This document shows positions 21,422-46,714 of a stretch of 64,000 nucleotides of DNA, one piece after another. The notes beneath the pieces were generated by a model. That model saw only the letters and a list, made by a program, of their open reading frames with translations, was not told the origin of the DNA and searched no databases. Every line of letters begins with the position of its first letter. The stretch's first letter is position 1. The DNA is from Paraburkholderia sp. HP33-1 (lineage in GTDB: Bacteria > Pseudomonadota > Gammaproteobacteria > Burkholderiales > Burkholderiaceae), in contig NZ_JAJEJR010000001.1 in NCBI RefSeq assembly GCF_021390595.1, forward strand, positions 2,852,001 to 2,916,000, read 5' to 3'. The translations under genes and the position numbers were made by a program.

Positions 21422-21558
21422 CGCAAAAGTTGGGCGAGAAACGTTTCAGGGCATTGCAAACAGACTGAGACGCGCCGCCGGGCGCCGCACGAAAGCGGGC
21501 GCTCATCTGCCGCCTCAGCTACAGGCGGCGTCGCGGAACGCACAGAACTATCTGCACA

Positions 21559-21737
21559 TCTTCTTCCATCCGGACTATGACCGTCGGCTCTGGCTTCTGA
21601 CCAGATCTGCTGACCCCGCCGCTGTCTCCAACACTTCGAAGACCGCACGATGCGGGCGCTCGCGGGCTTGCCGGCTCGCGCTGTCGCGCTGCCGGCCTAC
21701 CGCCGGTGGGGAATTTCACCCCGCCCTGAAGACGCAC
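21559..21737 (-). ncRNA. FMN riboswitch (RFN element) upstream of ribB
   Basis: The minus-strand RNA has the conserved RFN blocks in the expected order: TTCAGGGCGGGGTGAAATT, CCCCACCGGCGGTA, a variable hairpin (about 21650-21700), AGCCAGAGCCGACGGTCATA and GTCCGGATGGAAGAAGAT at the 3' end. This architecture binds FMN in known bacteria. About 140 nt separate it from ribB; the stretch can form a GCCGCCT/AGGCGGC hairpin near 21513-21535 that could act as expression platform. Boundaries are approximate. Confidence 0.92.
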
Positions 21738-45362: not shown

Positions 45363-45393
45363 AAAAAAAACCCGAACGAGCGGTTCGGGTTTA
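45363..45393 (-). terminator. Terminator of the small RNA
   Basis: A 10-bp stem AAACCCGAAC/GTTCGGGTTT (minus strand) with a 5-base loop is followed by T residues (45370-45363). It isolates the small RNA from the rplM promoter at 45269-45298. Confidence 0.85.
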
Positions 45394-45451
45394 ATCCACC
45401 AAAGGAGGAGGTGGAGGAGACAGCGGAGGTTGCAGAACTGCTGCAACGATG
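45364..45451 (-). ncRNA. Small RNA with anti-Shine-Dalgarno loop motifs
   Basis: The unit is about 88 nt. It is bounded by a promoter at 45458-45486 and an intrinsic terminator (stem CCCGAAC/GTTCGGG at 45371-45377/45383-45389, then eight T residues). A 5' hairpin is formed by TTGCAG/CTGCAA (45430-45446). A middle hairpin is formed by CCACC/GGTGG (45396-45400, 45410-45414) whose 9-base loop shows UCCUCCUUU on the RNA. Four CCUCC motifs occur in all (45425-45429, 45413-45417, 45407-45411, 45404-45408, read on the minus strand). It has no open frame with a start site. Anti-SD-loop sRNAs occur in alphaproteobacteria (CcsR, alphar14), and I recall a betaproteobacterial toxic sRNA family in Rfam that may be this one; membership was not checked. 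Confidence 0.7.
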
Positions 45452-45457
45452 GGACAG

Positions 45458-45486
45458 ATTATAAGAGCCGCCCTTGTGCGACGCAA
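45458..45486 (-). promoter_or_regulatory. Promoter of the small RNA
   Basis: TATAAT (45463-45458, perfect) is preceded by TTGCGT (45486-45481) with a 17-bp spacer. An AT-rich tract just upstream (45488-45545) contains the inverted repeats CATTT/AAATG (45490-45494, 45503-45507) and CATTA/TAATG (45496-45500, 45516-45520), which may bind a regulator or act as an UP-like element. Confidence 0.7.
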
Positions 45487-45784
45487 GAACATTTGCATTA
45501 CGAAATGTGTTTTCATAATGTAAAAAAATCGTAAAGCGGAACGCGTTTTGCGAAACTTCTTTTGGATCAAGCACTAAGGATTAAAGAACCCAAACCGCAT
45601 CAGACGTCCTCTAGAGCGAAACCCCTAAGTCGCTGGGAAGATTCGGGAATCGCCCTTCCATTCTGCACCGCAGCAAAAAAGCAATCAGGATGCATAGACT
45701 CGCGATGCGCGCGGCGTGAGCTAATTGTCAGACACCGGGCTACAATGCCGACTCGATATAGCGATGCGCGGTGGGAGTCACAGC
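45487..45784. other. AT-richer intergenic stretch between sRNA promoter and OsmC-like gene
   Basis: This region is less GC-rich than its surroundings and holds no credible gene. A possible -10 TACAAT at 45741-45746 may belong to the OsmC-like gene; I see no matching -35. The remainder shows nothing recognised. Confidence 0.4.
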
Positions 45785-46293: not shown

Positions 46294-46304
46294 TATTTGG
46301 CGGC

Positions 46305-46714
<410 letters not shown>

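Follow-up and report, generated by a model that had tools for sequence, protein, structure and literature searches.

Upstream of rplM in Paraburkholderia sp. HP33-1, the minus strand carries a short interval with a predicted promoter and terminator of its own, which raises two questions: what kind of RNA is encoded there, and what controls it? A sequence-only reading of the window (the whole stretch of DNA that was analyzed, 64,000 nucleotides long) had proposed a stand-alone small RNA (sRNA) with an exposed anti-Shine-Dalgarno (anti-SD) sequence, and this is borne out by the fold, the terminator and a separate rplM promoter. The reading that we prefer, at a probability of about 0.72, is that the locus encodes a trans-acting, NcS27-type sRNA of the RF02278 family that covers Shine-Dalgarno (SD) sequences and is controlled by PhaR via a palindrome over its -35 element.

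An RF02278 RNA with an anti-SD hairpin

The predicted RNA occupies positions 45363..45450 of the minus strand and is ~88 nt long, its 5' end being inferred from the -10 element. On the same strand, a TATAAT -10 element (45458..45463) and a TTGCGT -35 element (45481..45486) are separated by a 17-bp spacer, just as had been read from the sequence. Our consensus promoter scan omits this promoter because TTGCGT agrees with TTGACA at only 3/6 bases. The case for its being real rests on conservation and on the promoter of the Bordetella pertussis sRNA S17, TTGCAT-17-TACTAT, which has a 5' end mapped by 5'-RACE (PMC11722255) and a -35 element of the same kind and spacing.

In its long form the RNA folds into three hairpins with a minimum free energy of -31.9 kcal/mol (z -6.2), a stability that none of 200 shuffled sequences equaled; the short form has a z of -5.4. 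A 5' hairpin found only in the long form (45429..45447, minus strand) is followed by the anti-SD hairpin UCCACC-UCCUCCUUU-GGUGGA (45395..45415, minus strand), which presents UCCUCCUUU as a 9-nt loop, and by an intrinsic terminator with a 10-bp stem and a T8 tract (45363..45392, minus strand; T8 at 45370-45363). Between the first two lies the 5' pairing element UCUCCUCC (45413..45420, minus strand), of which the fold leaves the first five bases single-stranded and places the last three at the start of the anti-SD stem; it is exact in 73/78 relatives. The transcript of 88 nt, its three hairpins, the eight-T terminator, the 9-base loop of the middle hairpin and the four CCUCC motifs described in the sequence-only reading all withstood inspection of sequence and fold, with the qualifications that the transcript length is a prediction and that two of the four CCUCC words overlap. 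By description, the window sRNA is like CcsR and alphar14, alphaproteobacterial sRNAs with anti-SD loops; MmgR of Sinorhizobium meliloti also has a CCUCC-type motif.

The RNA is of a known kind and is not new. An Rfam scan of the whole window matched positions 45422-45362 to RF02278 (Betaproteobacteria toxic small RNA) at 71.7 bits (E 1.6e-12), relative to a curated gathering score of 50, and the match spans positions 1-64 of the 64 in the model. The features of the family, namely a CU-rich 5' side and loop, two hairpins and an intrinsic terminator, are all present. The betaproteobacterial toxic sRNA family with an anti-SD motif that the sequence-only reading had pointed to, with an Rfam search proposed as the check, was the right one.

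Conservation of the structure was assessed in a hand-picked alignment of 78 sources (66 of the 106 loci from our sample of the order, 9 from named genomes and 3 from the genome itself). Standard pairs filled 98.0% of pair cells across the 77 distinct relatives, and 222 cells showed changes on both sides, compared with 58.9 in shuffles (none of 500 reached 222) and a maximum of 45 after sliding of the partner column, although both the pair and the covariation counts are flattered by an alignment that was fitted to the structure. Covariation lies mostly in the terminator, where every one of the nine modeled pairs has both-side changes in relatives. The six modeled pairs of the anti-SD hairpin are paired in 100% of cells; three are invariant, one has changes on a single side and two on both. 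The loop region contains CCUCC or CUCCU in 72/78 relatives, so that covariation and loop conservation, both named beforehand as checks, came out in favor of a functional RNA. Given its Rfam E-value and the strong covariation in 77 distinct relatives, the RNA exceeds chance.

The family is widespread. RF02278 has four matches in the genome itself, three of them above cut-off and the fourth, at 32.3 bits, below the gathering score. Above-cut-off matches occur in 58/58 genomes of the genus searched and in 75/200 genomes of the order (128/200 at E up to 0.001), and in 0/14 control genomes. In Janthinobacterium sp. LM6 (G264, record of L129), six above-cut-off copies lie on one strand within ~30 kb (4138297-4168509).

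The rplM neighborhood and kinship with NcS27 and S17

The sRNA lies between rplM (L13; NCBIfam TIGR01066; 44719..45147, minus strand) and, on its opposite side, an OsmC-family gene (NF008009; 45785..46207, plus strand). Just past the OsmC gene is a class A RNase P RNA (46301-46714, minus strand, 288 bits), and an FMN riboswitch lies elsewhere in the window (21554-21737, minus strand, 98 bits).

Synteny beside rplM, another of the proposed checks, proved to be conserved in many relatives. In a covariance-model search, the sRNA was co-oriented upstream of rplM in 46/78 rplM loci of named genomes, the 78 being 80 loci minus L065 and L100, which have only 323 and 61 bp upstream. Genomes with this linkage include Paraburkholderia, Burkholderia, Caballeronia, Ralstonia, Cupriavidus, Pandoraea and Herbaspirillum, and the sRNA was absent upstream of rplM in all five Massilia, three Duganella and five Janthinobacterium loci searched. 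In the order sample it lies 72-1020 bp upstream of rplM in 39/63 genomes from 16 families, where the 63 are those with both sRNA and rplM coordinates among the genomes listed (no rplM coordinates are listed for 11 further genomes). Upstream of rplM in Paraburkholderia fungorum (L071), no RF02278 match was found within 2.5 kb; by eye, this region resembles an opposite-strand response-regulator gene, which suggests an insertion.

This position would suit a role in rplM-rpsI control, either as a leader or attenuator with read-through of the terminator or as a sensor of ribosome synthesis, and the co-oriented placement in 39/63 genomes speaks for it. We consider such a role highly improbable. The sRNA terminator is followed by a separate promoter-like site for rplM, TTGACT-18-TATAAT (45298-45269, minus strand), located by the promoter scan where the sequence-only reading had placed the operon's own promoter; in relatives, a promoter-like site with at least 10/12 consensus bases lies after the terminator and before rplM in 30/38 loci versus 0/38 single shuffles. 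At the level of sequence, then, the RNA does not read as an rplM leader or attenuator. Moreover, the sRNA is present yet away from rplM in 24/63 genomes (contig ends may account for part of these, as many are drafts), and the two other above-cut-off copies in the genome itself are also away from it. The linkage to rplM is real, but these counts, along with published targets in transport and catabolism, led us to drop the suggested tie to ribosome synthesis.

Gene order also indicates which known RNA this is. The Burkholderia aenigmatica locus (L077) runs from an OsmC gene through the sRNA and a small reverse ORF to rplM, and ncS27 was published as lying between BCAL3348a and BCAL3349 (PMC4603805). 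As this order and the genes of the window agree with the published one, the sRNA is, by synteny, very probably the orthologue of Burkholderia cenocepacia NcS27 (bdhR1, a double-hairpin RNA). NcS27 resembles the window copy in its family score, its two-hairpin core with a 5' extension, its rplM-OsmC neighborhood and its CU-rich, SD-pairing stretches. It is 92 nt long and is reported to contain a processing site from which a shorter form arises (PMC5688073).

Expression and growth inhibition have been published for these relatives and may, by analogy, extend to the window RNA. B. cenocepacia has four homologous double-hairpin RNAs, and the three that were measured rise in biofilm, in starvation and in glucose medium, in the last case 8.0-fold for ncS03, 6.9-fold for ncS05 and 4.3-fold for ncS27 (PMC5688073). 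Between 55 and 80% of their predicted target sites lie no more than 20 nt from gene starts, with predicted targets centered on ribosome-binding sites, and overexpression of ncS27 slows planktonic growth while antisense RNA speeds it up, with no significant effect on biofilm reported (PMC5688073). The earlier suggestion of an RNA that may throttle translation is upheld to the extent that overexpression of this orthologue slows growth; its alternative, a regulator of ribosome synthesis, is not. According to a review, genes for phenylalanine, tyrosine and sugars are affected by NcS27, whose targets are transport and catabolism genes and which attenuates growth only on certain carbon sources (PMC10987360).

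S17 shows what such an RNA can do to a target: it directly represses BP2158 (PMC11722255), and it resembles the window sRNA in its conserved 5' region and in its SD-covering repression. Unlike the ~88-nt window sRNA, it is cut by RNase E from a ~190-nt precursor, and it lies beside coq7 (PMC11722255). We found an above-cut-off RF02278 RNA adjoining coq7, an S17-type setting that, unlike that of the window copy, is not beside rplM, in two genomes of family f4 (G155 and G195). In G155, presumably a Bordetella relative, an OsmC protein 67% identical to that of the window is encoded on the far side of coq7 (L305). This combination of a coq7-linked RNA and an OsmC homologue suggests that S17 and NcS27 may be one ancestral locus.

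The same published work bears on whether the RNA is instead a general translation blocker, a true toxin that does not act via chosen mRNAs. Members of the family were named for their toxicity once introduced into E. coli; overexpression of S17, however, left exponential growth of E. coli BL21 unimpaired and affected entry into stationary phase only modestly (PMC11722255), and the growth attenuation by NcS27 is confined to certain carbon sources (PMC10987360). A true toxin is therefore quite improbable, and we favor an sRNA that represses selected mRNAs by covering their SD sequences.

A PhaR-type operator-like site in the sRNA promoter

The -35 element of the sRNA is overlapped by a palindrome, CTTGCGTCGCACAAG (45487-45473, minus strand), within a predicted PhaR/PhbF-type operator, TTCTTGCGTCGCACAAG (45473..45489, minus strand). 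PhaR/PhbF is the sensor of PHB (polyhydroxybutyrate) granules, a regulator that binds to them. The core of the predicted operator, TGCGTCGCA, lies at 45485-45477 (minus strand), and the site as a whole has one mismatch, where up to three were allowed, to the Ralstonia eutropha PhaR consensus YTKNTGCRNYGCANMAR (PMC12849132). By eye it also has one mismatch, on the other strand, to the Herbaspirillum seropedicae PhbF motif TG[N]TGC[N]3GCAA; PhbF has been purified from that species (strain SmR1) and footprinted on its phbF promoter (PMC3206438). The same strain has RF02278 RNAs of its own, Hsnc059, Hsnc063, Hsnc086 and Hsnc107. Like this site, the operators of phaP promoters under PhaR/PhbF in R. 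eutropha and H. seropedicae are palindromic, TGC-N3-GCA, and lie at or beside promoter elements; those promoters make granule proteins, whereas the window promoter would make a regulatory RNA.

Two inverted repeats had been reported upstream of the sRNA, at 45490-45520. One of them stands, CATTATGAAAA-N3-ATTTCGTAATG at 45496..45520 (minus strand); the second palindrome is the one over the -35 element, at 45473-45487, which had gone unreported. Repeats that by eye resemble CATTATGAAAA-N3-ATTTCGTAATG also occur in relatives within the genus and in B. cepacia-complex-like copies that have no PhaR core, and hence this repeat is perhaps the site of a second regulator.

Elsewhere in the genome, which has a PhaR gene (PF07879), the PhaR core recurs in the -35 region of both remaining above-cut-off RF02278 copies, upstream of two of the four above-cut-off phasin-domain genes and upstream of a PHB depolymerase gene (PF06850). 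No strict core was found upstream of phaR itself or of the other two phasin-domain genes, and the 13-mer TTGCRNYGCACMA had no match at the fourth, below-cut-off RF02278 copy (L161). This 13-mer has 20 matches genome-wide versus 8 for the pattern read backward, and 11 of the 18 matches inspected fall within ORFs of at least 150 aa. As TTGCRNYGCACMA alone is not selective genome-wide, we relied on comparison between genomes.

For this comparison we counted the strict core, TGCRNYGCA, in the 150 bp preceding the RNA at 106 above-cut-off RF02278 loci outside the genome itself (the upstream of one, L255, is shortened), drawn from the 200 genomes of the order sample. Of these genomes, 136 bear PhaR; genomes absent from this list of positives were taken as lacking it. 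The core was present at 49/80 loci from PhaR-bearing genomes versus 1/26 from genomes without PhaR (Fisher p 1.2e-7, which ignores ancestry). Counted per genome within the Burkholderiales, and again ignoring ancestry, the site thus goes with PhaR, in 44/55 genomes that bear it versus 1/19 that do not. The sole exception comes from an assembly that is 85% complete (G180), and among genomes at least 90% complete the counts are 40/51 with PhaR and 0/17 without. By family, the core was found in 17/19 with a PhaR-bearing carrier versus 0/6 whose sampled carriers lack PhaR (Fisher p 1.6e-4, likewise ignoring ancestry). Since 14/19 of the PhaR-minus genomes belong to six families, the association partly reflects ancestry.

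These counts were set against several controls. The reversed pattern occurred within 100 bp upstream of 0/106 loci, and Markov-shuffled upstream regions gave a mean of 3.0 and a maximum of 10 of 106. When all 64 triplets were placed in the same palindrome frame, TGC scored 50/106 loci and the next best 4. In the 150 bp before rplM, where the background is 0.032 per 150 bp, the core occurred at 1/80 named loci. It was present upstream of the sRNA in 27/43 named loci in which the sRNA was recognized and in 27/29 genus loci (30 loci taken from 58 genomes).

TGC lay 22-23 bp from a TATAAT-like hexamer in 15/31 pairings and 40-42 bp from it in 11/31, two clusters that would place the site either over the -35 element or just upstream of it. 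The latter position resembles that of site BS1 of phaP1, directly upstream of the -35 (PMC12849132). In G155, two PhaR cores lie between coq7 and the RNA (L305, 2765-2829), and the -35 at the second is TTGCAT, as it is in the mapped S17 promoter of B. pertussis. Not every counted site is at the promoter: that at L210 (G145) is ~144 bp upstream, near an unrelated-looking promoter, and those at L083 and L084 follow the -10.

Ordinary growth control of an RF02278 sRNA, with TGCRNYGCA as the site of some other regulator or as a quirk of a TTGC-type -35 that resembles the PhaR core, could account for part of this picture. The -35 TTGCRN is already half of the core, and the levels of S17 depend on Bvg and Hfq (PMC11722255). 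The fit to the outer flanks of the PhaR consensus is also weak: of the bases that played no part in selecting sites, those beside the core agree well (M 51/54, A 51/54), while Y (30/54), K (21/54) and R (33/54) are at about chance or worse. A -35 element would, however, leave unexplained both the second half of the site, GCAC(A/C)A, and the sites ~19 bp further upstream. Near absence of the site in genomes without PhaR and its recurrence at phasin and PHB depolymerase genes likewise count against another regulator or a quirk. We judge this explanation rather unlikely and retain PhaR as the candidate regulator.

The strict core is not universal. It is missing at 31/80 loci of PhaR-bearing genomes and at 16/43 named loci, including rplM-linked copies of Caballeronia and Cupriavidus (in Cupriavidus lacunae, L292 carries it and the rplM-linked L279 does not). 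PhaR occurs without any strict core in two families, f5 and f22; at four f22 loci, CGCRNYGCACAAA, which differs from the core by one base, can be made out by eye. In three B. cepacia-complex-like genomes the core is present in 3/11 readable copies and, unlike the window copy with its putative operator, the NcS27 copies have none. That these copies manage without the site fits ordinary growth control and makes PhaR control of B. cenocepacia NcS27 itself doubtful; that RNA nonetheless rises in glucose (PMC5688073).

In PhaR-minus genomes, variants of AATATTAGATAATNCTAATA were noted by eye around the -10 at L200, L203, L208, L216, L252, L254, L256, L257 and L261.

A proposed link between the carbon store and translation

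What we infer from these sites is PhaR binding, a direction of control and a physiological loop. In the absence of PHB, free PhaR over or beside the -35 would block RNA polymerase. Under carbon excess, granules would form and draw PhaR away by titration, and the sRNA would be made. Its two CUCCUCC stretches, one on the 5' side of the first hairpin and the other in the loop, would cover the SD sequences of target mRNAs and so repress them, and uptake and catabolic genes would be translated less. SD-region repression is published for a relative, S17, and may extend to the window RNA by analogy. For the step of PhaR repression the precedent is MmgR, an alphaproteobacterial sRNA whose promoter contains a PhaR(AniA) site and which is reported to be repressed by PhaR and to act on PHB accumulation (PMC12542648). 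It is a different sRNA from that of the window. PhaR can also activate (PMC12849132), so the sign of the proposed control is uncertain.

We lean slightly toward a wider proposal: that in PHB-making Betaproteobacteria PhaR directly represses RF02278 sRNAs, such that a filled store halts translation of uptake and catabolism genes; that PhaR is the missing repressor of S17; and that the arrangement parallels PhaR-MmgR. Sim et al. postulate that the S17 promoter is repressed in the Bvg-minus mode by a factor they do not name (PMC11722255), and PhaR is our suggestion for it. Sass et al. noted an upstream motif common to three of the four B. cenocepacia double-hairpin RNAs, with no mention of PhaR or PHB in their main text (PMC5688073). 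As whole words, PhaR, PHB and polyhydroxybutyrate are absent from the main text of PMC5688073 and from PMC10987360 and PMC11722255, and a link between PhaR and RF02278 was not found in the literature searched. The new part would thus be the operator-like site and, with it, a putative link across the order between the carbon store and an anti-SD sRNA.

If the proposal is true, a PhaR operator would answer both the motif of Sass et al. and the S17 repressor of Sim et al. with one factor. The sRNA would then be an output of the PHB store, tying carbon storage to a slowdown of growth, which would be relevant to soil bacteria, plant symbionts and bioplastic producers.
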